Shown: positions 9,372 through 40,676 of the stretch, in pieces
Numbering within the stretch: position 1 is the first letter of the stretch
Layout: each line of letters opens with the position of its first letter
Source: Gemmatimonadota bacterium
GTDB lineage: Bacteria > JBHIER01 > G020348925
Direction: 5' to 3'
Assembly (NCBI GenBank): GCA_020348925.1
Contig: CP070758.1
Location: 2,480,974-2,525,618, forward strand
Length of the DNA: 44,645 nucleotides
Made by a program: the position numbers and the translations under genes
The notes under the pieces: model-generated
Told to the model about the DNA's origin: nothing
Database searches by the model: none
What the model saw: only the letters and a program-made list of their open reading frames with translations

Positions 9372-9552
9372 CACATCAGGCTCAACTTCATACCTCTTCA
9401 ATAGGCATTGCTTGCGGTTTAGCAAAATTCATAACAAATAACATGTTAGTTGAAGAACAATTCATTCTTGATCGCCCACTATTTGTATGCTGGGCGAAAA
9501 TCTTTAATGGGACATATATCTCACTCGATCTCTCGTTAAAGATACATATACC

Positions 9553-19800: not shown

Positions 19801-22800
19801 CGGATTGGGGAGTAGTATTAGGGGATAGCTTGGAAGAACCAGGACCCGGCGACTGGGACGGGATCTACCTATATGGAAAGCATGAAGACAAAGGGATTGG
19901 ATTGTTCGATTACTGTCTCGTTCTTTATGGAGGTGCAATCGGTCATGTCATCGAGGCCAACATCTATTTCAATGAATCTGATTCAGGGTACGTTAACCAT
20001 AGCGATATACATGAAAGTGCCGCGTATGGAGTTAAAGTTGAAGGGTGTTCGCCTACATTTCGAAGAAACTTAATCACTCACAACATAGGCCCCGGTATAT
20101 ATAGCGGGGCAAATAGTAAACCTGATCTCGGCAGGGATGCTGCTGCAAATCAGGGAAAAAACTTAATATCATTCAATGACAATAATGGCTTTGGGGTATA
20201 CAATGCATCGAATAGCACCATAAAAGCATATTGTAATTCGTGGGGATATACAACTGTTGAAGACATCGATACTCATCTTCGAGATAATGAAGAGGGAGGT
20301 GGAGAGATCCTCTTCGATCCCTGGCTGGAGAAATGCCCAAAACGGGAAACGACAAAACAGTCTAATGGAAAAGATGGAAAAGTTAAGGATCCGATCTCAA
20401 CCGCGACAGGTGAGTTGTATAACGAGATGGTCGACCTGTATCTTGGCGGACCACTCCCCCTCTATTTCAGCAGATATTATGCATCACTGCTGACAAGAGA
20501 CGGCAATGTGAACAGTCGGTTTGGCACAAATTGGATGCACAATTTCGACTTGAAGCTTATCCTGGATGGAGATGATGCCTCAGCCGTTTACTATGGAGGG
20601 AAAACCATATCCTTTCAGAAGGATGATTTCAACTGGGAACTGGTGTATTCTGAACCGATTATCTATCAACTTGTAGAATCAGGAAATGAATTTAAGCTAA
20701 TGGATCCGGAGAGATCCCTCATATTTACCTTTAATGAAAATGGCATGTTCGTTCAAGTCGCTGATCGAAACGGAAACGTCCTCGATCTTACCTATAACGA
20801 TGACATGCTCAGCCAGGTATCAGACGGGCGCGGCCGAAGTCTTTCCTTTCTCTACACAGATGACAAGCTGACCCAGGTCCAGGACCAGAGCGGCCGCATG
20901 GTTTCATACTCATACACCGGGAATAATCTGACAGAGTTTACCGATGCCAATGGCTACTCCACCATGTATACCTATACCGAGACGGATGGGTACACGGGGC
21001 TGCTGACATCGACAACACGTTCCGAGGGCAACACACCATACACACAGATCTATGATGAACTGGGACGAGTTCTATCTCAAACAGACAGCAGGTCCAACGC
21101 AACTCGCCTTGCCTACGATTCTCCGGCAGAGGGGATGACAACTATCACAGATCCGCTCCTCAATGCTACTACACATACTCATGAGGACTTCAAGCGACTG
21201 ACCCAGTATCTCGACAACAACAATGAGTCTTGCTACATCACGTACGACGCGAACAACAGACGGACTGGCATAACCGACCGCCTTGGAGACGAGACAACCT
21301 TCACCTATCATGAAGCATCTGGCAAGATAAGTACTACGACCGATGCTGAGGGTAATACCACCTCGTACATCTATTCATCCCAAGCTCAGGGAGACTTTGA
21401 CTTCTACAACCTGACACGAATCGAATACCAGAACGAGACTTCAATCACCATGTCCTACGACGATTCAGGCAACCTGCTCACTCTGACTGACCAGGCAGGA
21501 CAGAACTGGTCCTATTCCTACAACAGTATGGGGCAGATGACCTCCGCTACCAATCCAGCAGGTGGAACAACAAACTATTCCTACAATTCCGACGGGTCAC
21601 TGGCCAGCTACACGGACCATTTCGGCAATACGACCAGCATCGTCTACGACACCTATAAAAGACCCCAGCAGGTGACATACCCCGATGGGACGACACGTCT
21701 ATTCACCTACGATGAGAAAGATAACCTGACATCTGCAACCGACGAGAGAGGTATGAAGACAATCCTGTCCTATGACACCAATGGCAATTTGAAAACCGTT
21801 ACGGATCCTATGAACAATAACCTCTCGTTGGAATATGACGGCAACGACGCAATCATCTCATCGTCCGACAGACTCAACGCCACAACCTATTACTTCTATG
21901 ATGGAAACGAACTGCTGTCCTCCATCACCAATCCGGCAGTTGAAGCCACTGACTTTCTCTATGACAGCCATGGATGGCTCACTTCGGTGACAGATCCGGA
22001 TGGTCATACATCCACTATAGCATATGATGAAGAAGGTGTTGTGACTTCCCTTACCGATGCTCTGTCAAACACCTGGAGCTATATGAGCGACAGGCTGGGA
22101 CGAATAACTCGAATACTAATCCCGGAGGGCAGCTCCCACGATTTCACCTATGACAGCATGGGAAGAGTATCAACCTACACAGATCCCTTGTCCAGAAGTA
22201 CTACCTATACATACGACGATCGGGGATTCATCACAGGGTGGTCTCTACCAGGTAATCTGTCGGCAGATTATGACCGTGACAACCTGGGCAATATCATCAG
22301 CGTGATCGATCCGAATGGAGAGAGCTGGACCCGCGACTACGATGAGATGGGGCGGCTGACTACCGAAACCGACCCCCTGAGCCGCTCAACCATTTATAAT
22401 TATGACAACAGGAGTCGAGTATCGAATATCACCTATCCCGGTGGTTCCCTGGAGATCACTCATGATGAGGCTGGAAACATCGTTCGCAAACTGTACTCGG
22501 ATGGTACAGATATCAGTTTTGCCTACGACGACAATAACCGTCTCTATTCATCAAACGACCTGAGCCTGGAATACGATGCACGGGATGACATAGTGGCCTG
22601 TAATGGTCTGTTGATGATACGAGATCAAGCGGGCCGTATTTCCTCCCTCACCCTGGCTCCCGAAAAAGTCATAACCTATAGCTACAACGGTCGAGGTTTA
22701 GTCATCCAAGTCACCGACTGGCTTGGCGGAACAACAGTCATCGACTATGATGAGGCAGGTCACATCATTTCCATAACCCGTCCCAATGGCATCATCACAA

Positions 22801-23900
22801 CGTATAGTTACGATAATGATGGCAGGCTAATCAGTATTGATGAGGCCAGCTCAGCCAGACTTTCGTCAATTTCTTTGACAAGAAACAGCGCCGGGGACAT
22901 CACATCCGAGACACGAAACGTCCCCCTCATTCCCGATCTTTCTTTGGATACTCAAACGCTATCATATGATGAAGCTTGCCAGGTCACAGAATTTACATAC
23001 GATGAGATGGGACGGTTGACCGAAGACATTCGACGTTCGTACTCCTGGAACCTGGCTTCAAGGCTTGTTTCGTACACAGAAGCTGGAAATACTGTAACCT
23101 TTACCTATGATGGATCAGGATTGCTGCACACGAGAACATCGGAAGATGTCACCAGGGAATACGTCTGGAATTACGCCCTGGGCCTCCCGTCAATCTCCCT
23201 CGTCAAAGAGAATGGCCATGACATTATGTTTTACATCCACCTCCCGGGAGGAAGACTGCTTTACAGTATCGATGCATCGAACGATACGCGCCATTACTAT
23301 CATTTTGATGAAACGGGGACGACGCTTTTTCTCACAGATGAAGCAGGCGCCATCACCGACACCTATGGCATCACGCCGTATGGGGAAACCGTAACGAAAA
23401 CTGGAATCACAGAGAATCCCTTTACCTTTTGCGGGGCTTTTGGTGTGCTTCAGGAAGGCGATACGGGGCTCTATTCCATGAGAGCCCGGTTTTATGATTC
23501 AGGTACAGGGCGATTCATTTCTACCGATGTCATCAATTCGATTCACCCCATAGAGATCAATCCCTATCAGTATGCCATGCAAAATCCCATGGCTCATTCG
23601 GATCCGATGGGTCTACAGACATTTCATTACTCTTTTCTTGATAATTATATACTGCCATTTTTTGTGGATTACTATATAAATATGTCCAGGAAAAAAGTGG
23701 AAGCTCCTATGCAACCGCCAGCATTAAATCCGACATTTGATGCTGCAAAAGATCGTGATCAAAGTGACTTGAAGCCTTCTTCGGACAGGGATGGAGGTTT
23801 TTCCTTTATAAGTTCACGGTACACTCTCAGAGATGAACCAATGTTTTGGGGAGGTATTTGGCCAGAAGTCGGATTTGCCACACCCACTCCTACACCATAG
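16824..23900 (+). CDS. Giant secreted beta-helix/Rhs-repeat protein (polymorphic-toxin-like)
   Basis: A 2358-residue exported protein with a signal peptide (residues about 7-24). Residues about 25-1180 are five tandem right-handed beta-helix modules of about 220 residues. Residues about 1188-1265 match the Rhs entry domain (DPISTATGELYNEMVDLYLGG, FSRYYAS). A long run of YD repeats (such as YDSMGRVSTYTDPLSRSTTYTYD) reaches about residue 2200. The Rhs core follows (YSMRARFYDSGTGRFISTD, NPYQYAMQNPMAHSDPMGL, ending about 2262), then a unique 95-residue tail. Rhs proteins form a shell that carries a C-terminal toxin or effector. Here the tail is cut by an amber codon, and the frame continues 63 codons further. 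AAGGAG precedes the ATG. The tail's activity is not recognisable. Confidence 0.9.
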   Translation: MLRKERMVITCFCFILLFQSADAYIEKSGNVSGETWIDTTYYITGSITVNDDETLTIEAGAVIKFKPDLRLKVYGTLVATGEEGNEIVFTASSDTDHGQPIPEAAGIPSPGSWQGIYFDGLDYRDGTGQLDWCIIRYGGQAGYDAPNANAFFRLSGSSYFRDCTSEYSATSGIKLSQCSPSIENNIFSNNVNHGLDVEGGSSVVDNNTFNNNGGYGAYLDGVACKSYTRNQGVDNGINGFGVIGTVESHCTWSMGSGSFPFVLPDEVEVQEGGELTFSENAIVKGDSLGLLTVNGKLDATFVTFTSLKDDDIGGNSDGDRGSPSCGDWYGIYVTGTGRFDGCNIKYGGRQGGYQVPLANVRFSNCDSSCFRNSQSGFSAEHGARVHNCSPEISDSRFYGNLGHGIFAQGSSSAPAIRNNVLGDDDGYWSGNGGWGVYLDDVILTSYANNKGGENGINAIGVSGTVTENCEWEMGVSGSVDFPFVILKENQVSVPLGHTLTLTSRTIIKADSSSSILVDGTLTAEGDYQRGTVVFTSFKDDEYGGDTNSDGPSSGEQGDWDGIFLNGQGDKQGIGEFNTCVIRYGGYRHGSAEANIRFNQSDSGHITNSLCEYSDYIGVEVISCSPDISGNEFLHNADSGLYVFGNQAKPVIADNIFTGNGLDAFGPGDSTYAVVLSSTILMSYTGNTGSRNGINAFAMNGLIEDSVTWSMPDQDFLFIMTENIDVEKEGTLSLSAGTILKAKDGTELNVKGVLEARGTEGDPVFITSIGDNIGGNKLSGEQVINIEPGAWDGIYLNGQDENLGIGKFDWCIIRFGGRSGQYNPMANIRFDKSDSGYFRHSISEYSKFSGIRIDNCSPVLDSSSMNFNLKDGLMAVGDSSAPIVINCSFNKNSEYGANMDDIILTGYIDNTGNENGTNGFRVKGWVNESCSWSMGSETFPFIMKDVLVDDEATLTLSAGTTIMAESNGRMKVYGTLDVNGNYGEYVIFTSVKDPDWGVVLGDSLEEPGPGDWDGIYLYGKHEDKGIGLFDYCLVLYGGAIGHVIEANIYFNESDSGYVNHSDIHESAAYGVKVEGCSPTFRRNLITHNIGPGIYSGANSKPDLGRDAAANQGKNLISFNDNNGFGVYNASNSTIKAYCNSWGYTTVEDIDTHLRDNEEGGGEILFDPWLEKCPKRETTKQSNGKDGKVKDPISTATGELYNEMVDLYLGGPLPLYFSRYYASLLTRDGNVNSRFGTNWMHNFDLKLILDGDDASAVYYGGKTISFQKDDFNWELVYSEPIIYQLVESGNEFKLMDPERSLIFTFNENGMFVQVADRNGNVLDLTYNDDMLSQVSDGRGRSLSFLYTDDKLTQVQDQSGRMVSYSYTGNNLTEFTDANGYSTMYTYTETDGYTGLLTSTTRSEGNTPYTQIYDELGRVLSQTDSRSNATRLAYDSPAEGMTTITDPLLNATTHTHEDFKRLTQYLDNNNESCYITYDANNRRTGITDRLGDETTFTYHEASGKISTTTDAEGNTTSYIYSSQAQGDFDFYNLTRIEYQNETSITMSYDDSGNLLTLTDQAGQNWSYSYNSMGQMTSATNPAGGTTNYSYNSDGSLASYTDHFGNTTSIVYDTYKRPQQVTYPDGTTRLFTYDEKDNLTSATDERGMKTILSYDTNGNLKTVTDPMNNNLSLEYDGNDAIISSSDRLNATTYYFYDGNELLSSITNPAVEATDFLYDSHGWLTSVTDPDGHTSTIAYDEEGVVTSLTDALSNTWSYMSDRLGRITRILIPEGSSHDFTYDSMGRVSTYTDPLSRSTTYTYDDRGFITGWSLPGNLSADYDRDNLGNIISVIDPNGESWTRDYDEMGRLTTETDPLSRSTIYNYDNRSRVSNITYPGGSLEITHDEAGNIVRKLYSDGTDISFAYDDNNRLYSSNDLSLEYDARDDIVACNGLLMIRDQAGRISSLTLAPEKVITYSYNGRGLVIQVTDWLGGTTVIDYDEAGHIISITRPNGIITTYSYDNDGRLISIDEASSARLSSISLTRNSAGDITSETRNVPLIPDLSLDTQTLSYDEACQVTEFTYDEMGRLTEDIRRSYSWNLASRLVSYTEAGNTVTFTYDGSGLLHTRTSEDVTREYVWNYALGLPSISLVKENGHDIMFYIHLPGGRLLYSIDASNDTRHYYHFDETGTTLFLTDEAGAITDTYGITPYGETVTKTGITENPFTFCGAFGVLQEGDTGLYSMRARFYDSGTGRFISTDVINSIHPIEINPYQYAMQNPMAHSDPMGLQTFHYSFLDNYILPFFVDYYINMSRKKVEAPMQPPALNPTFDAAKDRDQSDLKPSSDRDGGFSFISSRYTLRDEPMFWGGIWPEVGFATPTPTP
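16900..20230 (+). repeat. Five tandem ~220-residue beta-helix modules within the Rhs protein
   Basis: Each unit repeats the same order. It opens with W/M-S-M...FPF (or LFI), then LTLSAGTIIKAD-type strands, VxFTSxKDD, GDWDGIYLNGQ, CIIRYGG, ANIRF, SDSGY, CSPxIxxN, and closes with SYxxNxGxxNGINAF. Units begin near 16920, 17575, 18235, 18950 and 19615. The sequences are diverged, so recent duplication is unlikely. The region resembles pectate-lyase-like right-handed beta-helices. Confidence 0.8.
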
Positions 23901-24681: not shown

Positions 24682-24710
24682 TTGACAAATGAAACTTTAC
24701 TGTATATATT
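24682..24710 (+). promoter_or_regulatory. Promoter of the GntR-phosphatase/ABC operon
   Basis: A perfect TTGACA (-35), a 17-base spacer and TATATT (-10), 54 bases before the first start codon of the operon. The -10 lies inside the inverted repeat at 24698-24724. Together with that repeat it is the main content of the 274-bp gap 24490-24763. Confidence 0.7.
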
Positions 24711-24724
24711 GCGTCTATACAGTA
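24698..24724. promoter_or_regulatory. Probable GntR operator: perfect 9-bp inverted repeat
   Basis: TACTGTATA and TATACAGTA are perfect inverted arms with a 9-base spacer. They overlap the -10 and the start of transcription. YtrA-type GntR repressors bind such AT-rich palindromes. A repressor bound here would block the promoter, so one or both GntR-domain proteins of the operon probably autoregulate it. Confidence 0.65.
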
Positions 24725-24763: not shown

Positions 24764-25852
24764 ATGTTGCTGCGATTGACAGAATTATCACAAGAACCTT
24801 TATATAAGCAACTTATAGCCCAACTTTCTGAGCGAATTTCAAATGGAGAGCTTTCGATAGGGGCAGTATTACCAACTATCGGGAAAATGGCCCGGAAACA
24901 TCATGTCAACATGAATACAGTCAGACGGGCATACAATGAGTTGGAAAAGGTCGGTTTCATCCAACGTAAGGGCGAAGACAGTGCCGTTGTGACCTTTTCT
25001 CCTCCCCGGCTGGGACGAATTTCTGCAGGACATAAATCCATCACCCTTCATTCCCTCACTGGTACGACCACCCCTCTCTTTTCCGAACCTATGGAAAAAC
25101 GCGAATTGAACGACCAGCTGGTTAAAGTCCACCAGATTCAGACAAACCTGTTGCCCAAGAAATTACCTGAAAATGAATTGCTCTCCGTTGTGGCGCATTG
25201 CCATCCCTCTTACATCGTGGGGGGTGATTTCTATGACTGCATTCAGATCGACGAATACCGTTTCGGCTTCGCCATCGCCGACGCTTGCGGCAACGGACTG
25301 CCGGCCGCAATGCTTATCTCACAAATCCAGGCCATGCTCAAGAGCGAGCTCAATAATGGAAACCGAATCAGACGGATTCTGGAGAACATGAACCGACAGG
25401 TCTTTCAAAACTCCCCGGAAGACAGATTCGTCACCTTCTTTTTCGGAGTGCTCGATACATCCACCGGTCACTTCAGGTACGTCAATGCCGGCCACAATTA
25501 CCCAATTCTCATGCGAGGCCATGGCAATCCAGAAAGGTTGGAAGTTGGCGGTCTGGCTTTGGGCATGTTTTCTGATACGACCTTTGAAATCGGGCAGGTG
25601 GTTCTCACAGATGGAGATATTCTTCTGTTCTTTACAGATGGACTGACAGAAATAAGGAACGATTTACACCAGGAGTACGGAGAACAAAGACTGCTGTATA
25701 TTCTCGATCGTTGCCGGCATAGAAACATAGAAAACATTTTGAGCGATGTGTTAAAAGATGTAAGAACCTTTGCCGGAACGGAATCCTGGCAGGACGATTG
25801 CACCGTTATGCTTGTCAGGATCGGCAGGAGATTCTCTCATAGATCTGAATAG
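24764..25852 (+). CDS. GntR DNA-binding domain fused to a PP2C/SpoIIE-type phosphatase
   Basis: A 362-residue fusion. Residues 1 to about 75 are a YtrA-type GntR winged helix (EPLYKQLIAQLSERISNGEL, VNMNTVRRAYNELEKVGFI). Residues about 115-355 are a PP2C-family phosphatase of the SpoIIE/RsbU kind: VGGDFYD (D155), IADACGNG (171-178), NAGHNYPIL, FTDGLTEIRN (D292) and QDDCTVMLV (D344, D345), which supply the metal-binding acidic residues. RsbU-type enzymes dephosphorylate anti-anti-sigma proteins. Here the enzyme sits on a DNA-binding head, so it might dephosphorylate a partner near the promoter or have its DNA binding tuned by the phosphatase domain. GGGAGG precedes the ATG. It is the first gene of the ABC operon. 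No anti-sigma or STAS partner is in the window. Confidence 0.9.
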   Translation: MLLRLTELSQEPLYKQLIAQLSERISNGELSIGAVLPTIGKMARKHHVNMNTVRRAYNELEKVGFIQRKGEDSAVVTFSPPRLGRISAGHKSITLHSLTGTTTPLFSEPMEKRELNDQLVKVHQIQTNLLPKKLPENELLSVVAHCHPSYIVGGDFYDCIQIDEYRFGFAIADACGNGLPAAMLISQIQAMLKSELNNGNRIRRILENMNRQVFQNSPEDRFVTFFFGVLDTSTGHFRYVNAGHNYPILMRGHGNPERLEVGGLALGMFSDTTFEIGQVVLTDGDILLFFTDGLTEIRNDLHQEYGEQRLLYILDRCRHRNIENILSDVLKDVRTFAGTESWQDDCTVMLVRIGRRFSHRSE

Positions 25853-25859
25853 GAGCACG

Positions 25860-26237
25860 ATGCTTTTAAACCTGACCGATCTTTCCGACGAGCCGCTTCA
25901 AAGCCAGCTGGCAAGGCAAATACGGGCAAAAATTTTGGCGGGGGAATTATCCGCCACGGCTCCCTTGCCTTCAATTCGAGCCCTGGCACGAGAGCAGAAG
26001 GTGAGTGTCATCACCGTTCAACGGGCTTACGAACATCTCATGCGGGAGAACCTGATTCATTCCAGACGAGGAAAGGGCTTCTTTGTATCAGAAGTGCCTC
26101 GCACCCAAAAAAAGGATATGGCTGTAGATCGGCTTAAGGATCATCTTGAGCGCCCTGTGCGCGATGCGATTTCGGAGGGACTGACGGTGAAGGAAATTAA
26201 AGCAGCACTGGGGGAGATTATTTCAAAGATCGGTTGA
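25860..26237 (+). CDS. YtrA-type GntR transcriptional regulator
   Basis: A 125-residue GntR regulator of the short YtrA subgroup. The winged helix (residues about 1-75; LPSIRALAREQKVSVITVQRAYEHL) is followed by a short helical tail for dimerisation (DAISEGLTVKEIKAALGEIISKI). Its first 30 residues (MLLNLTDLSDEPLQSQL) closely parallel those of the preceding GntR-phosphatase, so the two heads are probably paralogues. AGGAG lies before the ATG at 25860; an upstream in-frame ATG would overlap the previous gene. In the well-known Bacillus ytr arrangement such a repressor controls a neighbouring ABC exporter, as expected here. Confidence 0.92.
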   Translation: MLLNLTDLSDEPLQSQLARQIRAKILAGELSATAPLPSIRALAREQKVSVITVQRAYEHLMRENLIHSRRGKGFFVSEVPRTQKKDMAVDRLKDHLERPVRDAISEGLTVKEIKAALGEIISKIG

Positions 26238-26333
26238 AAAGCCTAAGCCTTAGCTTAATCCGACAAAGGAGCCAGGAATTCGGCATTAAAGAAAAACTCA
26301 AACGAAACACATAAGATCCAAAGGAGAAGTACG

Positions 26334-27218
26334 ATGGAAAAAGCATTTCACTTCAAAAACGTAGTTAAGAGATATCCTGAATTTCAGCTCGGGCCGCTCA
26401 GCCTGGAGTTGGAACCAGGGGTTGTCCTCGGTTACATCGGGCCGAATGGATCGGGGAAGACAACGACGATGCATTGTCTCACAGGTCTGGTCAAGGCGGA
26501 TCAAGGCGAAATGTATGTCTTCGAGCGCAGGAACGATCCGAACAAACCCGCATGGAAACTCGATATTGGATACGTCGGGGACGTCCATGTATTCTACGAG
26601 CGTTGGTCCGGTGAGAAAAATTTGCGGTTCCTCTCCCAGTTCTACCCGAACTGGTCCCATGAGCGAGCTCAGGAACTGGCCCGGCGTTTCAATCTCCCTT
26701 TAAACAAAAGAGCCAAGGATTTATCCAGTGGGAATCGTGTCAAATTATCCCTCATCTCGGCTCTGGCTCATTCTCCGAGATTATTACTTCTCGATGAGCC
26801 GACCTCGGGGATTGATCCGGTCGTTCGAACAGAAGTACTGGATGTTCTCTTCGAAGTTTTGGAGGATGGAGACAGGGCCATCTTCTACTCCACACATATT
26901 TTGTCAGATATCAGTCGTCTCGCCGACGAATTGGCCTTTCTGGATAACGGTCAAGTTATGCAGAGATCCGCAAAGGACGACCTGACCGACACCTGGCGAA
27001 AAATTTCCTTTCGCCTGGATAAAGAGTTGGTTCCTTTGGAGGCAATGGTAGATCGAAAACAGGAAGGTAATGACTATCAGGTCATCAGCTCGAACTTTGA
27101 AGCCACCGTGCAACATCTCCGTGAGCTTGGTGCTGAAAACATCCGCGAAAACCGCATGACGATCGACGAGATTGCCGTCCAGATATTGAAGGGTGGAATT
27201 CATGTGGCGAGTTCTTAG
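26334..27218 (+). CDS. ABC transporter ATP-binding protein
   Basis: A 294-residue ATPase of the ABC-2 exporter type. Walker A is GPNGSGKTTT (near residues 42-51), the Q-loop region is YVGDVHVFYERWSGEKNL, the signature is LSSGNRVKLSL, Walker B is LLLLDEPTSGID, and the switch histidine is in STHILSDI. The last glutamine/glutamate of the signature is asparagine (SSGN). About 80 C-terminal residues form an accessory domain. AAAGGAG precedes the ATG. Its end overlaps the first permease start. It is the only ATPase in the operon, so it probably pairs with all the small permeases. Closest known arrangement: Ytr/Bcr-like exporters. Confidence 0.93.
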   Translation: MEKAFHFKNVVKRYPEFQLGPLSLELEPGVVLGYIGPNGSGKTTTMHCLTGLVKADQGEMYVFERRNDPNKPAWKLDIGYVGDVHVFYERWSGEKNLRFLSQFYPNWSHERAQELARRFNLPLNKRAKDLSSGNRVKLSLISALAHSPRLLLLDEPTSGIDPVVRTEVLDVLFEVLEDGDRAIFYSTHILSDISRLADELAFLDNGQVMQRSAKDDLTDTWRKISFRLDKELVPLEAMVDRKQEGNDYQVISSNFEATVQHLRELGAENIRENRMTIDEIAVQILKGGIHVASS

Positions 27219-27909
27219 TGCCGAATTACAGTATAACAGGTATGTTGCGATTTACATACTGACACTCTCTGTCTTGAGTTTCATCAGCGTGCATTTCTAC
27301 ACACCCATATTCGGAAGGCCAATGACGTACACGAATGCAGGCATCATCTCGTCCGGTCATATGTTCTTCTTTTTTGTCGGTACGATTCTTGTCTCAGCCT
27401 GGTGGAAAGAGCGCACCTATCGCAGTCATGTCTTGCTCCCTCTCGGAGCATGGAAAATTGGAGCAGTGCGATTCGGGATGTATCTGATTTATTGGATTTC
27501 ACTCCTCTGTATCTATTTCATCTGGAGTCGTATTTCTCAGCATTTCACTATTGACGCCAAGATGATTTCCGTCCTGTGCACACAAACAGGCTTTATATTG
27601 ATTGTTTTCTCACTTATTTTCTTTTGGAGCGATCTCCGTGAATCGACAATTAAGAATCGAACAATTCTCAGGATGCCGGGAAAGAAAGTATTTGGCTTAG
27701 CAACCTTGGTCACTATCATGCTCATTTCATTTATCAGTATGGCCGGGACCGTTCACACGTACCAAAGAAAATGCACAAGCCAGTTTGACCGTTTTTTGTG
27801 CTGGGTGTACCAATCTGAAACTGGACCGGTTTTTTTCATCGCACTGGGTCTCTGTTTCGCCATGCTCACAATTATGACTTTCGGACGTCGAAGATCATAC
27901 TTTGATTGA
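27202..27909 (+). CDS. ABC-2 type small permease 1
   Basis: A 235-residue inner-membrane protein with about six hydrophobic segments. It opens MWRVLSAELQYNRY and ends GRRRSYFD, and carries a loop KERTYRSHVLLPLG after the second membrane span. These three marks recur in the four later permeases of the operon, which makes the set one paralogous family. The ATG at 27202 is chosen over a GTG nine bases upstream because the MWR start is shared by the family and AAGGG lies before it. It overlaps the ATPase gene by 17 bases. Transported substrate unknown. Confidence 0.87.
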   Translation: MWRVLSAELQYNRYVAIYILTLSVLSFISVHFYTPIFGRPMTYTNAGIISSGHMFFFFVGTILVSAWWKERTYRSHVLLPLGAWKIGAVRFGMYLIYWISLLCIYFIWSRISQHFTIDAKMISVLCTQTGFILIVFSLIFFWSDLRESTIKNRTILRMPGKKVFGLATLVTIMLISFISMAGTVHTYQRKCTSQFDRFLCWVYQSETGPVFFIALGLCFAMLTIMTFGRRRSYFD

Positions 27910-27931
27910 CTATGATAAAGGAGTCAACACC

Positions 27932-28594
27932 ATGGAAGAATCATTGAAATTCAATATGTGGCACGTTTTAAAAGCGGATCTCCAATATCACAGGCTGGTC
28001 ATCGGAACCGTTTATACCATCGGCATTATGATGCTTATTGGAGACCTCGCTTTAAACATATTCGACATATATATGATCTTGGGAATCACAACGCTGTCCT
28101 TTTACGCCGGGATGTGGATCATTGGAGCAACGGACAACAAAGAAAAACGAGACCGACATCAAACGGCTCTTCCGAACTCAATCGAAAGACAAAGCACCGT
28201 GCGCCTCATGTTTTGTGTTCTTTTTCAGACAGGTTTACTGATTATGTGGCTTCTCCTCCTTCTTCTCAAATACGCTGGTGATGCCAATCGACTTGTCTGG
28301 GATATCTTCTCCATAAATGCCCTCAATCTCATCATTATAATGCTTTTCGTTATCTATGCTGATTTAGGTGAAGTGGGAAAAAAATTGTATCGATATCTTT
28401 TTTTAGGGTCGGTTTTACTCATTCTATTCTTTCTCATCTATCTCAGTATTATCGATACTCTCCAATATCCTCTTTCTTTTGGACCTGAGATCAGAAAAAC
28501 CCCAGTGGAGACAGCGGTGTATAATATCGTCTGTATCGTTTTAATTTATTTCGATCATATAATCTTCTTAAAGCGCAGATCGTATCTTGATTAG
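27932..28594 (+). CDS. ABC-2 type small permease 2
   Basis: A 220-residue six-span membrane protein of the same family as its neighbours: MWHVLKADLQYHRLV at residues 9-23, the loop NKEKRDRHQTALPNS, and the ending KRRSYLD. AAAGGAG sits eight bases before the ATG at 27932. Its first eight residues (MEESLKFN) are an extension absent from the other four. No ATP-binding or enzyme motif. It most likely forms part of the membrane channel with the ATPase at 26334-27218. Confidence 0.87.
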   Translation: MEESLKFNMWHVLKADLQYHRLVIGTVYTIGIMMLIGDLALNIFDIYMILGITTLSFYAGMWIIGATDNKEKRDRHQTALPNSIERQSTVRLMFCVLFQTGLLIMWLLLLLLKYAGDANRLVWDIFSINALNLIIIMLFVIYADLGEVGKKLYRYLFLGSVLLILFFLIYLSIIDTLQYPLSFGPEIRKTPVETAVYNIVCIVLIYFDHIIFLKRRSYLD

Positions 28595-28606
28595 GAATTT
28601 ATCACT

Positions 28607-29290
28607 ATGTGGAAACTCTTCTGGACAGAATTGAAATATAACAGGCTCTTGATATCTATTGCCTACATATTCTGCCTGATCTGTTTTGTCACAATATGGT
28701 TTGGTGTACGATACGAACATAATCGCGTGCCGTTATTCATGCTTATAATTCTTGTCACAACGTTTATGATTCATTTTACAGTTGAAGGGAGTCGAACAAA
28801 AGAGAACAGAAACAGAATGCAAGTGGTACTACCAATTCCAAGTACTATCATTTATGTCAGTCGTTTTTCTCTATCTATTGTCTTATGGATAAATATCGGA
28901 CTGTTGTTAGTGATTAGTCAGCGTATCGTGCAATCTCTTTTCAATAGTTCCCTAATGATACCCACTGCCAATCAGCTCCTTTCTGTGAATGGATTGGTCT
29001 TAATCATAACTGTCGCTTATCTTCTCAACTCGGATAAAAATACAGTTTTTTCGCGCGGTTCCCTCAGAGTCATGACTTTTATTGTTTGGTTGGGTTTTTA
29101 CGTGGCTGCACTGGGACCTTTCTTTATTCTCACAGATTTTTTAGGTGCGTTCGGGCAACACACCCCTCTCCAAGCAACATTAATGAATGTAATATCATCG
29201 ACATCAGGGAGTCTTACCCTCAATCTGTTAGGTTTGTCCCTCGTCCTCATGAGTATAATTATTTTTATCAGGAGGAGATCATTTGTCTAA
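28607..29290 (+). CDS. ABC-2 type small permease 3
   Basis: A 227-residue six-span membrane protein beginning MWKLFWTELKYNRLLI, with the loop SRTKENRNRMQVVLPIP and the ending IRRRSFV. The codons for the terminal arginines also contain the AGGAGG ribosome-binding site of the next gene, whose start overlaps this stop by eight bases. Its own ribosome-binding site (AGGA) is distant, so translation may depend on coupling with the preceding permease, which ends 12 bp upstream. Confidence 0.87.
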   Translation: MWKLFWTELKYNRLLISIAYIFCLICFVTIWFGVRYEHNRVPLFMLIILVTTFMIHFTVEGSRTKENRNRMQVVLPIPSTIIYVSRFSLSIVLWINIGLLLVISQRIVQSLFNSSLMIPTANQLLSVNGLVLIITVAYLLNSDKNTVFSRGSLRVMTFIVWLGFYVAALGPFFILTDFLGAFGQHTPLQATLMNVISSTSGSLTLNLLGLSLVLMSIIIFIRRRSFV

Positions 29291-31574
29291 ATATATCGAT
29301 GTTAAAAATATTACTCGGATTTTAAACCTGTTCATTGTCTCAGTCTTATTGGGATGTGGGAACCAGCAAAAGCATTCAGAAAAGGTTACAATTGAATTCC
29401 GACTCGCCGAAACGACCCCGGTTGAAGGTTTGTCCGAAATGATTATTCAAAGCTCCGGGGAGAGGTTTTTTCTCCACCAAGAGGTATTACTGTCGAACAG
29501 CGATATAGCATCGGCTTCCGTTAAAATGCACAACAATCGATCTGCTGTTGAATTGATCTTGACTGATACAGGGCGAGACAAACTGGCCGAAGTAACACAG
29601 GAAAACATCAATAACCGCATGGGAATGCTTATAGACGGAAAACTGGTGTCAGCTCCCCTCATTCAGGCTCCGATACGCGTGGGCAAGGCAATCATCGACG
29701 GAGGATTTTCTGAAAACGAGGCGCTTCGTATTGTACGTTACATTGAAAGTGGACGAAAGATCGCAGGAAGGATACCACGATTTCACTTGAAAGACGCAAA
29801 AGGATTTATGCACTCATACATGGCGGCCCTCAGGACCGGAGACAAATCCGAGATCTCCTCCTTCTGGAGTAAAATATCGTTGAACAGGGAAGGTTTTGGT
29901 TACATGCATCTGTGGATCGGTGCGTGTCTACCGATTTCCGAATGGACAACCTTTTTCGAAGAGAACGACTATACCTATCACATAAACTCCGTCAGCACCG
30001 AGAAGGATCATTACATAATTCATTTCGACTGGATTGAGGGAGATACATCTAACGGAAAAAATGAATCCGAGACGCACCCCATGCGGTATTATATCGTTTG
30101 GGAGGATGAAGAATGGGTTTTGATAAATCCCATCGACATCCTAACGAGGGACTGGTCCATATACGAGAGCGAGTATTTCATTTTTCATTATCCAGCACAG
30201 ATCAACATCGAAGACCATTTTTCAGAACTTCATTTCATGGATCGAGGATACGAAAAATTAATTGAATCGCTACACATATCCCCTGCAGAAAAAATAGAGT
30301 ATTATAAAGCCCGAACACCTCGAAAATGCGGAGATCTCGTCTGCTTTCCACCTGCCAATGGATATTGTGCACGCGGTCTCCCTTTTCGTCCGAATGCACC
30401 TCAGTGGTTTCACATTGTCATCTCAACATCCTTTATTAATCTTCATGAAGTGACTCACTTGCTTGTTCCTGACGCCGATCTCTACAGCATCAACGCTGCA
30501 TTTGATGAGGGAATCGCTGTCGCTTTTGGAGGTACGACCTTTCAAACAGCCGAATACGCGCTCATTCGCACAAGAAATGCGATCGGTCAATCTGACTATG
30601 TACCCCTTGAAACCTTTCTTACAGATGAAGCTCATTTTTGGAAATACTCGTTTATAACCTACCAGGAAGCGGGGGCATTCGTAAGATTTCTGATCGACCG
30701 ATTTGGAATTGAAAAGTTAAAAAAACTCTGTAACGATCCTGAAGTCGGTCAAGAATTAGCCGGTACGATTCAGAAAATCTATGGCTTTTCAATCAAGAAA
30801 TTGGAACAACAATTTAAAGAATATCTGAGCGAGATCGATGTACCAGAAGTTGAATATTCCGCACCTGATAATGCAACGTTAGTCTTCTCCATGACCGATC
30901 CAGAGAACGATGACAACGGAGACGGTGACTATGAGTACCCAGCAGACAAACGGTTTGAGAAGGGAGTCTTTGATCTGAGAGAATTCAGCGTGCTCACGGA
31001 TACCAGTCGCGTCTATTTCAGATTAAGATTTCAAAATATGATTGGACCTGTAAACTATGATGATATAGAAGAGAAGTTCTTACCTGGCACTGTTATCGCG
31101 ATCTGTAAGAAGAGGGGTGCTGGAAGACACGTCCAGAAGTATTTTGATGGCGTCCGATTTGAACAGGATAGGGGTTATGACATAAAACTCACTGTCGGAT
31201 TCGGAATCACAGCCTCCAACAATTTTGGGAAAGTATACTATACGACCGGAGACAACTTCAGCGACCTCTCAAATATCGAAAACAATACAATCTCATTTTC
31301 AATCCCAATTGATTTTATCGGAAAACCTCATAAGAATTGGGGGTATTTTGTGGGAGTCGGACTGATGGGCGATCGCACGATGCATTTTACCGGAGGTCCC
31401 ATGCCTGTGTATAAGGACCACAGGCTTTTCATTCGTGGCGGAAATCACGAGTTCGGCAATCCGGCTTTCATCGACATTCTTCTTCCTGAAGAAAGAAACC
31501 AGAAAAAGATGCTCTCCGACTATGACCCAGGAGAAGGGAAACTGGCCGTAGTCCCCATAATCACACAAAGATGA
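29283..31574 (+). CDS. Lipoprotein with SecD-P1-like, HExxH metallopeptidase and glucodextranase-C-like domains
   Basis: A 763-residue lipoprotein. The lipobox is LLGC (C25). Residues about 34-160 resemble the P1 head of SecD: LTDTGRDKLAEVTQENINN, GMLIDGKLVSAPLIQAPI, IDGGFSENEALRI. Residues about 295-510 form a peptidase-MA-like domain with zinc motif HEVTH (H388, E389, H392) and a probable third ligand, E409, in DEGIAVAFGG. Residues about 525-763 resemble the glucodextranase C-terminal/DOMON sandwich (DPENDDNGDGDYEYP, FDLREFSV). The TTG start at 29283 is chosen for an AGGAGG seven bases upstream and overlaps the previous stop. Its place between permeases suggests a cell-envelope partner of the transporter, perhaps processing its substrate. 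Localised by inference to the periplasmic face. Confidence 0.87.
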   Translation: MSKYIDVKNITRILNLFIVSVLLGCGNQQKHSEKVTIEFRLAETTPVEGLSEMIIQSSGERFFLHQEVLLSNSDIASASVKMHNNRSAVELILTDTGRDKLAEVTQENINNRMGMLIDGKLVSAPLIQAPIRVGKAIIDGGFSENEALRIVRYIESGRKIAGRIPRFHLKDAKGFMHSYMAALRTGDKSEISSFWSKISLNREGFGYMHLWIGACLPISEWTTFFEENDYTYHINSVSTEKDHYIIHFDWIEGDTSNGKNESETHPMRYYIVWEDEEWVLINPIDILTRDWSIYESEYFIFHYPAQINIEDHFSELHFMDRGYEKLIESLHISPAEKIEYYKARTPRKCGDLVCFPPANGYCARGLPFRPNAPQWFHIVISTSFINLHEVTHLLVPDADLYSINAAFDEGIAVAFGGTTFQTAEYALIRTRNAIGQSDYVPLETFLTDEAHFWKYSFITYQEAGAFVRFLIDRFGIEKLKKLCNDPEVGQELAGTIQKIYGFSIKKLEQQFKEYLSEIDVPEVEYSAPDNATLVFSMTDPENDDNGDGDYEYPADKRFEKGVFDLREFSVLTDTSRVYFRLRFQNMIGPVNYDDIEEKFLPGTVIAICKKRGAGRHVQKYFDGVRFEQDRGYDIKLTVGFGITASNNFGKVYYTTGDNFSDLSNIENNTISFSIPIDFIGKPHKNWGYFVGVGLMGDRTMHFTGGPMPVYKDHRLFIRGGNHEFGNPAFIDILLPEERNQKKMLSDYDPGEGKLAVVPIITQR

Positions 31575-31601
31575 GTACTACTCCGCTCAAAGGAAACCGT
31601 C

Positions 31602-32246
31602 ATGTGGAAGCTGATTCGATCTGAGTTGCTGTATTACAAAACACTGTTAACCATTCTCTACGCCTTCGTGGTACCATTTTTCATATTCAATATCTTCAGG
31701 CAAGGTTTCGAATAACATCTGGCCCGGGCAATGTGGATTACGGTCCCCAACATTGCTATTGCTTTGAAAAGCGAATACAAGAAATCGAAGAAGAATCCGC
31801 TCTATGCGAGGTTACCGATACCAACACTCCATGTCGGAATCTCAAAACTTGCAATTTGGGTGCCGTACTGGTTGAGTCTCGTTTTTCTATTCACAATCAG
31901 TAGTCTCTTAAACAATCACAGCAGAATAGAACAGTATTTTCCCTGGATTATTCTGACTCTAGCGAGTTCGATGATTATCATAGGGGCATTTTCCAGCACT
32001 GTACTGGACCTGCGTTACTGTTTGAGAGGGATAGTTATGGATCAGACTTTGGCAGCGTGTATCATACTTATCCCATGGATCTTGGCATTACTCTACCTGT
32101 TTATGAGCATTTCCGGCCCCGTCGGTCCGTATTTGGCGAGAACCTTTTTCTCTCCAGGAGTCTCGATTTCAATGACGTCCGTTGCAACCATTTTGCTCGT
32201 CCTGAGTATCATTGTTTTTAATCAACGCAGATCTTTCCTGGAGTAA
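31602..32246 (+). pseudogene. ABC-2 type small permease 4, interrupted by an in-frame ochre stop
   Basis: The gene starts MWKLIRSELLYYKT at 31602, after AAAGGAAA, as its paralogues do. It reaches a TAA at 31713-31715 after 37 codons, then continues in the same frame without shift to 32246. The downstream part includes the family loop (KKSKKNPLYARLPIP) and the ending NQRRSFLE. Without the stop it would be 214 residues. The downstream ATG at 31731 has no clear ribosome-binding site and would lack the first membrane span. Either the gene is recently inactivated or the base is a sequencing error. Readthrough is possible but unsupported. Confidence 0.8.
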
Positions 32247-32251
32247 TGGCA

Positions 32252-32953
32252 ATGTGGAAATTGATAAAGGGGGAATTTTTTTACAATAAGAACATGCTTT
32301 TAGTCTGTTATACTATTTTTATCGCTTTACTGATTACATTCGTCTACTTCCCCGGCAGAAACTTGGAACAGCCACCCGCTGCCAAATGGTTAATTGCTGC
32401 TATTTGGCAAATCTTTATTGTTTCAATTGTTGTGTGGGCTTTTTATGCTTCGGGGAGTGTCAAGAATAGACGAGCCAGGTTTCAAACAATGCTGCCTGTC
32501 TCGATCTTGCAGGTTTCGTTGATACGCTTTGTGTTGCCTCTTTTCTTCTGGTCGAGCGGAGTTTGCCTCTTTTGGATCATGCACCTTCTGGGCAGCACAT
32601 CGAAAAGTGTCATCGATGTCTTCTGGACCATGTTATGTTTGATGGGCGTGTTCCTCATTATTGTATCTCTACGTTACATTGCCATAGACTTAAAAACCTC
32701 ACTCATAGCTAAGAACGTAAAATGGTTCGTCCGCAATATGGCCGGCGGTATTCTCTTAGGTATCATATTCATCGTCTATTTTTTCACAATCTATACGTAT
32801 TACTCCATCAGACCGTTTCATGCATTACGGCAATATTCACCGTCGTTCCTGCTTACACCTTCGGTGGCGGTTTTGTGGACCGTAATTGGCGTAATGCTCA
32901 CTTTCGCCAGTATTGTCGTCTTTTCCTGCAGACAGTCATATGTTGAGTCCTGA
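32252..32953 (+). CDS. ABC-2 type small permease 5
   Basis: A 233-residue six-span membrane protein: MWKLIKGEFFYNKN start, loop GSVKNRRARFQTMLPVS, ending CRQSYVES (a variant of the RRxS ending of its paralogues). The ATG at 32252 is chosen over the ATG at 32246 because GGAG lies eight bases before it and the MWK start matches the family. It is the last gene of the operon. A weak hairpin at 33021-33049 may terminate transcription. Confidence 0.87.
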   Translation: MWKLIKGEFFYNKNMLLVCYTIFIALLITFVYFPGRNLEQPPAAKWLIAAIWQIFIVSIVVWAFYASGSVKNRRARFQTMLPVSILQVSLIRFVLPLFFWSSGVCLFWIMHLLGSTSKSVIDVFWTMLCLMGVFLIIVSLRYIAIDLKTSLIAKNVKWFVRNMAGGILLGIIFIVYFFTIYTYYSIRPFHALRQYSPSFLLTPSVAVLWTVIGVMLTFASIVVFSCRQSYVES

Positions 32954-33020: not shown

Positions 33021-33049
33021 TAGAATATGGAATCGTTGCTTCTATTCTA
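33021..33049. terminator. Possible terminator between converging operons
   Basis: TAGAATA and TATTCTA form a 7-bp stem around a 15-base loop, followed by a T-rich stretch on the plus strand. AT-only pairing makes it weak. Upstream, 32954-33020 holds only a short GACAA-G-TTGTC palindrome. Confidence 0.3.
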
Positions 33050-33541
33050 TTTCTCATTTTTACTATCCCTAAGCTCAAATCGATAAGGAACGGATACGTA
33101 ACACGGCACGGCCTTGTCGCTGACCTTTCCCGGCTTAAACAAAATTTTAGTAGCAGCCTGCATGGCCGCCTCATCAAGTGGGCGATGGCGAGAAGACTCC
33201 ATAACGCGAACCTCCTTGACCCGGCCTTCTTCATCGACGAGAAGTCGAAGAATCGTCGTCCCCTGTATACCGGCCTTCTCCATCGACTCAGGATATTTGG
33301 GTTGTGGGTAATCGATGATCTGAGGCATCGTATCACATTCGAAGAATCCCTCGAATCCACTCTCAGTTTGAGTCTCATCGTTAAAAAGTTGACTCGCAAT
33401 TGCTTCTCCGCCCGGAAACTCTCTCGATGACAGAGTCTCACTGCCGAGCTTCATAATGTGAAAATAGATGAGGAGATTAAGACCTAAAACAAGAACCATT
33501 ATCCCGAGGATAACTGAAAGCAGTTTTTCGGACTTATTCAT
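33047..33541 (-). CDS. TonB C-terminal-domain protein with membrane anchor
   Basis: A 164-residue protein. Residues about 8-28 form a membrane anchor (LLSVILGIMVLVLGLNLLIYF). A linker follows, then a TonB C-terminal domain (about 75-160): PQPKYPESMEKAGIQGTTILRLLVDEEGRV, SSRHRPLDEAAMQAATKILFKPG, VSVPYRFEL. It may couple inner-membrane energy to an outer-membrane receptor or act as a sensor in the sigma system. The ATG at 33541 overlaps the end of the anti-sigma gene by eight bases, so it is co-translated. No ExbB/ExbD or TonB-dependent receptor is in the window, which favours a role linked to the sigma/anti-sigma pair. Confidence 0.85.
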   Translation of the reverse strand: MNKSEKLLSVILGIMVLVLGLNLLIYFHIMKLGSETLSSREFPGGEAIASQLFNDETQTESGFEGFFECDTMPQIIDYPQPKYPESMEKAGIQGTTILRLLVDEEGRVKEVRVMESSRHRPLDEAAMQAATKILFKPGKVSDKAVPCYVSVPYRFELRDSKNEK

Positions 33542-34124
33542 TTCCTGGCCCCCTTTTTTTGTTAAAGATGGATTGTACTTCAATTGCCGGTAACTGCGAA
33601 TAACACCCTGGTAAAAGATCTACTCTCGACGGTCTCTTCAACTCAACTAAGAACGCCCTCATATTCTTCAATCCGTACACGCTTGGCTCTAAGAGTTTAA
33701 GCGTTTCCTTTTCAAAAGTGCAACCGAGCGTAGGTGATACTAATTTGAAACATGGCGTTTCTGATGAGATGGACCGTTTCCAAGGCACACGTCCAAAGAA
33801 AGTCAAAAGAAGTAGAAAAACAACAGCTGCACAGGAGTATATCATTGCCCTTCTGACGAAAAGCGGTCCGATGAGCTGATTGTCAGATCGCAACGTCTGA
33901 ATCTCATTCCGTACCCTCGCCCACATCTCTTCGATCTTGATTTCAGCATTCTCATCCTGGGGAACAACCTTGTGAAGCAGCTTTACAGCTTCACTCTCTT
34001 CCGATTGAAAAGCTGAACACTGGGGGCAGTGCCGTAAATGCTTCACCACTCTTGTGGCTTGATTCGGCTTCAGTTCGTTCTTCAGGTAATCTTCCATGAG
34101 GAGTTGGGCTTTCGTGCACCTCAT
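33534..34124 (-). CDS. Membrane-anchored anti-sigma factor with zinc-finger head
   Basis: A 196-residue protein. The N-terminal head has C3 and the HLRHCPQC motif (H29, C33, C36), the zinc-binding anti-sigma fold that holds ECF sigma factors. One membrane span lies near residues 91-112 (AMIYSCAAVVFLLLLTFFG), and the outer part is about 85 residues with no known domain. It overlaps the sigma gene by four bases (ATGA) and the TonB-domain gene by eight, so the three form one translation-coupled unit. A signal outside the membrane would release the sigma factor. Confidence 0.88.
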   Translation of the reverse strand: MRCTKAQLLMEDYLKNELKPNQATRVVKHLRHCPQCSAFQSEESEAVKLLHKVVPQDENAEIKIEEMWARVRNEIQTLRSDNQLIGPLFVRRAMIYSCAAVVFLLLLTFFGRVPWKRSISSETPCFKLVSPTLGCTFEKETLKLLEPSVYGLKNMRAFLVELKRPSRVDLLPGCYSQLPAIEVQSIFNKKRGPGNE

Positions 34125-34657
34125 GCCTCATCCCCCTTTCGCAGTATTTCCCTCAATCTTTGCCTCGCCTGATACAGGAGTACACGAATCGTACCCTCCG
34201 TCGTCCCCATGATTTTTCCCGTTTCACGGCAGGAAAACCCTTCCGAATAGCGAAGTATACAAGCGGTTCTCAAACGCTCCGGTAAATTCTCTATCAGGGA
34301 TTTTACGATTTGAACCTCCTCATCTCTCCCGGCGGTTTTATCCGGAAAACTGTCAATCTCGACCTCTTCGTGAGATTCGATCTCACGTTTTCTTCTATCA
34401 TATCGATCCCTCGCCTCATTCGTTACGATTCTATAAATCCAGACATCGAATCGCTCCGGATATCTCAATGACGAAAGAGATCGATACGCCTTCAACATCG
34501 CCTCCTGAACAATATCCTCGGCGTCCTCCTGATTACCAATGAGTCGAAGGGCATAACTCGTCAGAGGTCGACAGTAGGCATAGAACAAATCTCTAAAGGC
34601 CGCAATATCTCCCTTCTGAGCCTCTCGCACCTTCTTTGTGCGCTCACTTCGTTCCAC
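34121..34657 (-). CDS. ECF RNA polymerase sigma factor
   Basis: A 178-residue ECF (group 4) sigma factor. Region 2 spans about residues 20-90 (FRDLFYAYCRPLTSYALRLI, EDAEDIVQEAMLKAYRSL, FDVWIYRIVTNEARDRYDRR); region 4 spans about 118-172 (LIENLPERLRTACILRYSEG, ETGKIMGTTEGTIRVLLYQ). The start codon is GTG, with AGGAA eight bases upstream. It sits before its anti-sigma factor, overlapping by four bases. A 9-bp inverted repeat at 34699-34730 lies in the upstream gap. Regulon unknown. Confidence 0.93.
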   Translation of the reverse strand: MERSERTKKVREAQKGDIAAFRDLFYAYCRPLTSYALRLIGNQEDAEDIVQEAMLKAYRSLSSLRYPERFDVWIYRIVTNEARDRYDRRKREIESHEEVEIDSFPDKTAGRDEEVQIVKSLIENLPERLRTACILRYSEGFSCRETGKIMGTTEGTIRVLLYQARQRLREILRKGDEA

Positions 34658-35622: not shown

Positions 35623-36675
35623 TCAGCTCACAACGATTTTCCCAGCAGGATTCTCTGCCACCTCCCCGACAATTGCCGCATCCGCAACGCCGGCTTGATG
35701 CATACGCTCTAAGAGCCTTTTCGATCTCCCCTCCTCCACAGAGATCAGAAGTCCTCCCGAAGTCTGTGCATCGTAAAAGACGGACCGCAATTCCTCCGGG
35801 GCAGAAGATTCCCAGACAACACACTTCGAGTAAAACTCCCGATTTGACAGTGATCCTCCAGGAAGGACACCCTGCTGGGCTAGATCCACTGCTCCCGGAA
35901 AAACCGGAACCTTTGTTGCGGAGAGAAGGAATCCCGCCCGGCTATTTTGCACCATCTCGCTGGCGTGGCCCAGCAAGCCGAATCCAGTGATATCGGTACA
36001 GGCATGGACGCCAACATGAACCATCGCCTCAGCCGCCTTGTTGTTCAAAGCAGCCATTGATTGCGTCAGCCGATCCGCCAGCGAAGCTTCTACCACGCCC
36101 GCTTTGATGCCCGTCGTAACGATTCCGATCCCCACAGGTTTCGTCAGGATGAGAACATCGCCTGGCCGCGCACCAGCATTCGCAATTATCCGATCCGGAT
36201 GGACCGTTCCGGTGACGGCAAGCCCATACTTCATTTCCCGATCGTCCACAGTATGGCCGCCCATAAGAGCGACGCCGGCTTCTTTCATTTTTTCGATACC
36301 GCCCTTGAGCATCTGGGTCAAAACATCCAACTCCAAAATACCGACGGGAAAGCCCACAATATTCAGCGCAGTGATCGGTGTTCCACCCATGGCGTAGACA
36401 TCACTCAGGGAATTGGCCGCTGCAATTTGACCGAACACATACGGATCGTCCACCACGGGGGTGATAAAGTCCACTGTTTGGATTACGGCAACGTCATCCG
36501 TCAAACGATAAATCCCGGCATCGTCGATTGTCTCCGGTCCGATAATGAGACGCTCATTCTCAATTTTGGGCAACTGACGCACAACGTGCATCAGATCCTG
36601 AGGATTCAGTTTCGACGCTCACCCCGCGCAGCGGACCTGCTGGGTCAGGCGCTTCTCAATCTCACTTTTTGTCAT
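35623..36675 (-). CDS. selD: Selenophosphate synthase (selenide, water dikinase), itself a selenoprotein
   Basis: A 350-residue enzyme that makes selenophosphate from selenide and ATP, the selenium donor for Sec-tRNA. The reading frame passes through a UGA at 36619-36621, codon 19. The context is C-A-G-U-A-S-K-L; the family's catalytic Cys/Sec is three residues before the essential lysine, which fits U19 and K22. Upstream of the UGA the start is ATG at 36675 (MTKSEIEKRLTQQ) with GAGGT at proper distance. Later marks include RLTDDVAVIQTVDFITPVVDDPY, GGTPITALNIVGFP, LMGGHTVDDREMKYGL, TDITGFGLLGHA and DAQTSGGLL. A standard gene call would begin at 36591 and lose the catalytic N-terminus. Linked to selA and selB upstream. 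Confidence 0.93.
36595..36605 (-). promoter_or_regulatory. Possible SECIS hairpin in selD
   Basis: On the minus strand, ATCC-TCA-GGAT can form a short stem-loop about 13 bases after the UGA codon, in the distance range of bacterial SECIS elements. The stem is short and an alternative TCAG-GAT-CTGA fold overlaps it. Positional support only; a folding program should decide. Confidence 0.3.
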
Positions 36676-36770
36676 TGCTATTGACCTCATACCTTGTAGA
36701 ATTATTAATGCCTTAAAATCGAAATGTTGAAAAGTTACTAAGTAAAAAAGATCTTGCAATTTCATCCATA

Positions 36771-37145
36771 CTATTCAATTTTCTTTCTGAGATGTGATGC
36801 TAAGGATGCAATTCCTGCTGACAACTGTTTCACTTTTTCACGACGCTCCAAAGCTATATGTCTCGTTACATACTTTAAATCTTCCGCGGGATAGTACATA
36901 CTTCTAACTTCGCCGCAAGATCCTTTCGAAATGTCTAAAAACCTGGCAAATTCATTGTTCGAATTTCGTTCGAATCCCTCGGCAATATTGTTCATGATGG
37001 AGATACCTGCTTTTTGAATCTGGCTCTTAAATCCAAAATCCTGGCAACCGGTTCTACCTCTTCCAAAGTCTGCGTATATGTCCTTAACAAGTATCCTGGC
37101 TTGTTGCCATATCCATAAATCCTCAAACGTTTTCACCTTTTCCAT
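36771..37145 (-). CDS. Four-helix-bundle protein (23S rRNA intervening-sequence-type)
   Basis: A 124-residue protein of the four-helix-bundle family first seen in 23S rRNA intervening sequences. It has FEDLWIWQQARILVKDIY, GFKSQIQKAGISIMNNIAEGFERNSNNEFARFLDIS and GSCGEVRSMYYPAEDL. The IAEGFER and GSxxExR blocks are typical of the family. Homologues are scattered through many genomes as standalone genes, and their role is unknown. GGTGGGG lies before the ATG. It splits the selenium operon, between selB and selD, and is preceded by a purine-rich degenerate repeat. This suggests insertion of a mobile unit. Confidence 0.92.
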   Translation of the reverse strand: MEKVKTFEDLWIWQQARILVKDIYADFGRGRTGCQDFGFKSQIQKAGISIMNNIAEGFERNSNNEFARFLDISKGSCGEVRSMYYPAEDLKYVTRHIALERREKVKQLSAGIASLASHLRKKIE

Positions 37146-37164
37146 TTTATCCCCACCTACCTTT

Positions 37165-37262
37165 TCTTGAAAATTTTCCCACTCTTCCTCTTTTTGACTT
37201 TTCTACTCTTTAACTCATCCTCCTTTTGTACTTTTCCACTTGTCAACTTTGTAACTTTGCAG
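37165..37262 (-). repeat. Purine-rich degenerate short tandem repeat upstream of the four-helix-bundle gene
   Basis: On the minus strand a run of variants of AAAGT-type units (AAAGTTAC, AAAGTTGAC, AAGTGG, AAAAGTAC, AAAGAGTAG, AAAAGTC, AAGAGTGG), each about 7-10 bases, fills the gap between selB and the four-helix-bundle gene. Copies are imperfect. Possibly part of the mobile unit. Confidence 0.5.
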
Positions 37263-39188: not shown

Positions 39189-39191
39189 ATC

Positions 39192-40607: not shown

Positions 40608-40676
40608 TGAATGCTCATTTCTTTGGACTTTGAAATCCGCAATTTCCAACCTATACACTTAGGCCCAAGGCTTGTT

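Follow-up and report, generated by a model that had tools for sequence, protein, structure and literature searches.

A predicted YtrA-type repressor-controlled operon with one ABC ATPase and several permeases in a Gemmatimonadota bacterium

Results

Gene content and setting

The operon was analysed in a stretch of 44,645 nucleotides (the window) from a Gemmatimonadota genome that consists of one contig of 5.04 Mb. Read 5' to 3', it comprises a promoter with an operator, a gene for a GntR-SpoIIE fusion protein, a GntR gene, an ABC ATPase gene, the permease genes P1, P2 and P3, a lipoprotein gene and the permease genes P4 and P5. As the ATPase gene and P1, P3 and the lipoprotein gene, and P4 and P5 overlap or abut, the layout is consistent with a single transcript. 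The genes listed in a first-pass annotation of this DNA were all found, but the GntR-SpoIIE/PP2C fusion (24764-25852) and the second GntR gene (25860-26237) at the start of the interval had been omitted. Just 5' of the operon ends the gene of a 2358-aa RHS/YD-repeat protein whose N-terminal part is a beta-helix (16824-23900, plus strand). Convergent with the operon are genes for an ECF sigma factor, a zinc-finger anti-sigma-like protein and a TonB_C protein (33047-34657, minus strand), and further on lie selenocysteine genes (35623-40658, minus strand), namely AIRS/SelD-like, SelB (37263-39188) and SelA (39192-40658). The genomes used for comparison are all related to the source at the level of the domain only, with no close relative among them.

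Promoter and operator

A sigma-70-type promoter, TTGACA-N17-TATATT, lies at 24682-24710 on the plus strand; with 11 of 12 bases it is near-perfect and the best promoter match in the 9.7 kb scanned. The predicted operator TACTGTATATATTGCGTCTATACAGTA (24698-24724) has its core, ACTGTA-N13-TACAGT at 24699-24723, over the -10 box, and the half sites of this core form a perfect repeat. With up to three mismatches allowed, the core is present as a single copy in the 5.04 Mb genome, and no second copy was detected elsewhere in it. In the relatives an operator was called when at least 10 of the 12 half-site bases were matched upstream of the first gene. On this basis all 12 loci of the first test set carried the site (expected by shuffling, 0.33), as did the later loci L101, L102, L111, L112, L113, L114 and L116, which brings the total to 19 of the 19 loci that have a GntR gene and upstream sequence, the window counted in. 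For L113 the ORF picker gave no separate GntR frame, since the longer ORF chosen for the ATPase encloses it. No site was found in L117, which shows no GntR gene either.

The YtrA repressor of B. subtilis binds AGTGTA-N13-TACACT (PMC8060467), and the operator described here is of equal length and has the same 6-13-6 spacing, with one base changed per half. Repressors of the YtrA subfamily typically have, at their own promoters, long palindromic operators whose half sites lie far apart (PMC6746942), and the sequence shows such an element here. Two relatives (L074 9290-9397 and L075 9274-9396) have a tiny single-span membrane ORF of 28-40 codons, depending on the start chosen, between operator and GntR gene. 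This is where Bacillus has YtrG, which precedes YtrA (PMC12772383).

GntR repressor and GntR-phosphatase fusion

The GntR gene at 25860-26237 (plus strand) encodes a predicted repressor of about 125 aa with the GntR domain at residues 15-77 (Pfam GntR 7.6e-16). Members of the YtrA subfamily combine a GntR HTH with a short C-terminal domain of about 50 aa (PMC6746942), and the protein fits this size. PmtR was among its top NCBIfam matches, over the full length. In nearly all relative loci with upstream sequence the GntR gene adjoins the ATPase gene. Taken together, the layout, position and conservation of the operator make control by a YtrA-type repressor a well-supported prediction.

The first gene of the operon (24764-25852, plus strand) encodes a 362-aa protein in which a GntR HTH is fused to a SpoIIE-type PP2C phosphatase (Pfam SpoIIE 1.9e-47, GntR 1.7e-12). 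By alignment its HTH is paralogous to that of the neighbouring GntR protein. The catalytic and metal-binding Asp motifs GGDFYD, DACG, FTDG and DD, which place the protein in the SpoIIE/PP2C family, occur in the window protein and, slightly altered, in six relatives, and they are intact in all seven sequences aligned. The fusion gene was found in 11 loci (the window, L076, L077, L080, L081, L082, L084, L100, L101, L115 and L116), the copies of L100 and L115 running off the contig end, and it is the first gene in about half of the loci. The L080 protein may additionally carry a GAF domain. L078 seems to retain, between operator and GntR gene (9250-9402), the first and last codons of a GntR-SpoIIE gene that has otherwise been deleted. 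No paper on a GntR-PP2C fusion was found in the open-access literature searched.

ATPase and transporter class

The single ATPase (26334-27218, plus strand; 294 aa; Pfam ABC_tran 1.4e-22) has PmtA as its nearest NCBIfam model (4.5e-59) and ABCA, Rv1218c and NosF as its nearest solved structures. Orthologues that are 54-79% identical occur in KSB1, Aminicenantes/Acidobacteriota and other MAGs. The closeness to PmtA, the PmtR match and the shared gene order, GntR first and then the ABC genes, could be taken to mean that the operon is a remote homologue of PmtRABCD and encodes a Pmt-like peptide exporter. We consider this quite unlikely, as the scores are below the equivalog cutoffs (PmtA 200 against 350 bits, PmtC 81 against 375, PmtR 71 against 200), so that the proteins do not classify as PmtABCD, and a single ATPase stands in place of the pair PmtA and PmtC; the operator layout, moreover, is that of YtrA. 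Assignment to YtrBCDEF, which would call for YtrB and YtrE, YtrC/YtrD and YtrF, does not hold either, since no second ATPase or YtrF-like gene was found in the operon. The YtrA-subfamily GntR protein, the -10 box covered by an operator of YtrA layout, and the PmtA/YtrB-type ATPase nevertheless bear out, at the level of sequence, the earlier description of the locus as Ytr-like.

An AlphaFold model of P3, built with 35 relatives in the alignment, reached a pLDDT of 90.9 and a pTM of 0.85. Its best matching PDB folds were CcmB and NosY, with Foldseek probabilities of 0.93-1.00 and TM-scores of 0.46-0.60 for the top matches; the fold was judged on these two values because all E-values were above 0.03. 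Searching PDB by permease sequence gave no match, and Pfam ABC2_membrane_5 was matched by 8 of 35 permeases (best 1.4e-7). The modelled permease fold and the class of the ATPase together point to a type-V (ABC-2) transporter.

Five permease genes, one of them interrupted

The permeases are encoded on the plus strand at 27202-27909 (P1), 27956-28594 (P2), 28607-29290 (P3), 31602-32246 (P4) and 32252-32953 (P5, with an alternative ATG at 32246 that overlaps the stop of P4). The first-pass annotation had counted five paralogous permeases and one ATPase; one ATPase and five permease frames are indeed present, but only four of the frames are intact, codon 38 of P4 being the stop TAA (31713-31715). 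The shared motifs it described (MW at the start, E/D-L-x-Y, a basic loop with LP at its end, and RRS(Y/F) as the tail) are real, except that the tail of P5 reads CRQSY. Across 35 permeases the Y, L-P and R residues of these motifs are almost invariant. A profile made of P1, P2, P3 and P5 recovered the held-out P4 with an E-value of 2.5e-15 and, in its own genome, P5 with 3.8e-92 (P5 itself being in the profile), and with the same profile no permeases beyond P1-P5 were found in the whole genome.

The ATG-initiated ORF of P4, starting at 31731, is without the first membrane span. The broken gene could be a sign that the whole operon is out of use and decaying, an explanation that we regard as very improbable: the other frames are all open, catalytic motifs are intact, operator and promoter are well preserved, and the rest of P4 holds no other stop, so that the TAA is either a recent event or an assembly error. 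As P4 is broken here, not every permease subtype seems to be needed, a point against the reading favoured below. Selenocysteine at this position, considered in view of the selA and selB genes in the window, was ruled out because the codon is TAA and not TGA.

Relatives and permease history

More than 20 relative loci have the same ATPase with one to five such permeases. One permease was found in L061, L079, L080, L111, L112, L113 and L115, two in L069, L070, L085, L114, L116, L076 and L101 (in L076 and L101 the contig ends nearby), three in L074, L077, L078 and L100, four in L075, L084 and L102, and five in L081. The matches were weak for the second permease of L085, L076, L114 and L116, and also for L117. 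The first-pass claim that one ATPase serves several permeases thus extends to the family, and several permeases per ATPase appear, with the support of these sequences, to be a conserved design.

A tree was made of 38 permeases, with P4 entered as a read-through carrying X at the stop. P1 grouped with L081_4, L074_2 and L075_2 (support 100/99), P3 with L081_5, L074_3, L075_3 and L078_3 (97/95; P3 is 42% identical to L081_5), and P4 with L075_4 and L079_1 (98/91). P2 was nearest to L081_1 with weak support (91/53), and P5 had no resolved place in the tree. The end branches are long, so the deeper joins are not to be trusted. A P1-type gene precedes a P3-type gene in the window, L074, L075 and L081. 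The AU test rejected trees in which all five window permeases were forced together (p-AU 1.6e-33), and likewise those that joined the L081 permeases into one clade (p-AU 6e-6).

It had been proposed that relatives with only two permeases and no peptidase would make this an ordinary, locally expanded ytr locus. In the form considered here, one permease would have been duplicated recently in place and a peptidase gene inserted by chance. Relatives that have no more than two permeases and lack the peptidase do exist, and a paralogue of the peptidase stands alone elsewhere in the genome. Yet local expansion of an ordinary locus fails as an explanation of the permeases: tree and AU test rule out recent tandem duplication, orthologues of P1, P3 and P4 occur outside the phylum (KSB1 or Aminicenantes), and the pairwise identity among the window permeases is 18-27%, so their duplications are old. 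The permease half of this explanation is therefore refuted while the peptidase half is untouched, and as a whole we hold it to be decidedly unlikely. The permeases are better described, as the sequences support, as ancient subtypes that recur across phyla and are served by one ATPase.

Lipoprotein and accessory genes

The lipoprotein gene (29283-31574, plus strand) has a TTG start codon with AGGAGG ahead of it, within the last part of P3. An HExxH lipoprotein within the permease run and coupled to permease 3 had been noted before, and the lipobox LLGC, the motif HEVTH...DEG and an 8-nt overlap with P3 agree with this; the annotation did not mention the SecDF P1 head and the Glucodextran_C domain that flank a gluzincin-like Peptidase_MA_2 domain in Pfam. 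HExxH with a downstream Glu is as expected of a gluzincin, and Peptidase_MA_2 scored 33.5 bits against a cutoff of 32.4. The stand-alone paralogue in the source genome (L035 1961-3853, minus strand) has 630 aa, is 42% identical, lies near EF-G, rpsL and rpoBC, and has HEVAH...AEG and no SecD head.

None of the more than 20 relative loci, which share the ATPase and permeases, has the window peptidase; whole genomes of twelve relatives gave domain fragments only, and a query with the lipoprotein against 85,000 species gave no match. These relatives thus show no conserved peptidase partner of the transporter, and the lipoprotein is best read, from these comparisons, as a genome-specific accessory. 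Other exported hydrolases follow the permeases in some relatives, of family S15 in L074 and L075, S41 in L100 and the beta-lactamase family in L113. Elsewhere the permeases are followed by GSDH, by acyltransferase 3 or by none of these. Genes for a NatA/NatB-like ABC exporter follow the permease run in L077, L078 and L102, and a NatB-like permease alone does so in L084. The theme of the accessory genes is envelope-related, although mixed, and a link between the transporter and peptidases is no more than a lead.

The first-pass annotation had suggested that the set may act as an exporter plus envelope enzyme, for instance in defence against antibiotic peptides. In the form considered here, peptides would be exported or extruded by the ABC part and cut outside by the lipoprotein, for processing or defence. 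The apparent translational coupling to P3, the closeness of the ATPase to the peptide exporter PmtA and the hydrolases in the four relatives speak for such a set. Most relatives, however, do without a peptidase, the accessory genes are of several kinds (acyltransferase, GSDH, NatAB-like ABC, none) and the paralogue stands alone, so a special set defined by the peptidase is not supported and the explanation appears unlikely.

Discussion

The locus is probably a YtrA-type repressor-controlled, multi-permease type-V (ABC-2) transporter operon for envelope homeostasis, with a GntR-phosphatase in about half of the loci of its family. It resembles B. subtilis ytrGABCDEF in the promoter-proximal YtrA-subfamily repressor, the 6-13-6 operator and the ABC-2 type transporter, but differs in having one ATPase with one to five shorter permeases and a GntR-PP2C fusion, and no YtrE or YtrF. 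YtrC and YtrD are longer than the permeases of the window; this and the score of the ATPase below the PmtA cutoff speak against the reading. Stress on the lipid II cycle is routinely monitored with ytr operons as reporters. YtrBCDEF consists of two ATPases and two permeases together with YtrF, and in B. subtilis a role of ytr in antibiotic defence or survival could not be confirmed, homeostasis of the lipid II cycle being favoured (PMC12772383).

In S. aureus PmtR-PmtABCD a GntR repressor likewise precedes the ABC genes, and the system provides the closest NCBIfam model for the ATPase, but the match remains below the equivalog cutoffs and Pmt is without a phosphatase. Pmt has two ATPases and two permeases. 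The type-V transporters NosFY and CcmAB are similar in the (modelled) permease fold and the ATPase class, whereas their regulation and partners are unrelated; they have a single permease type, used as a homodimer. In gene make-up the locus can also be likened to lantibiotic immunity LanFEG, in which one ATPase is shared by two small paralogous permeases, under two-component control and with no GntR protein known.

By analogy with Bacillus ytr, from which we infer the physiological role, the GntR protein would hold the operon off until a signal from the envelope, for which lipid-linked wall precursors are candidates, relieves repression. Each ATPase dimer may then engage a pair of permeases, on the model of YtrB2CD, and one motor would drive several transporters or extractors that differ in their membrane parts. 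The GntR-PP2C protein might compete for or share the operator and so couple operon activity to a phospho-switch on serine/threonine, and the lipoprotein, presumably co-expressed, could act on a protein or peptide outside the inner membrane. A more far-reaching and rather doubtful possibility is a combinatorial family, in which non-interchangeable ancient permeases would form alternative pairs on one ATPase under a YtrA-layout operator and a PP2C-fused factor, and envelope hydrolases of unrelated families (MA, S15, S41, beta-lactamase type) would be recruited per lineage.

A cross-phylum relative of ytr that has the same operator layout, one ATPase and varying old permeases offers a natural experiment on permease pairing, and the loci with one permease allow the sufficiency of a single-permease form to be asked. 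The GntR-PP2C fusion, in turn, would link a DNA-binding repressor directly to phosphoprotein switching.
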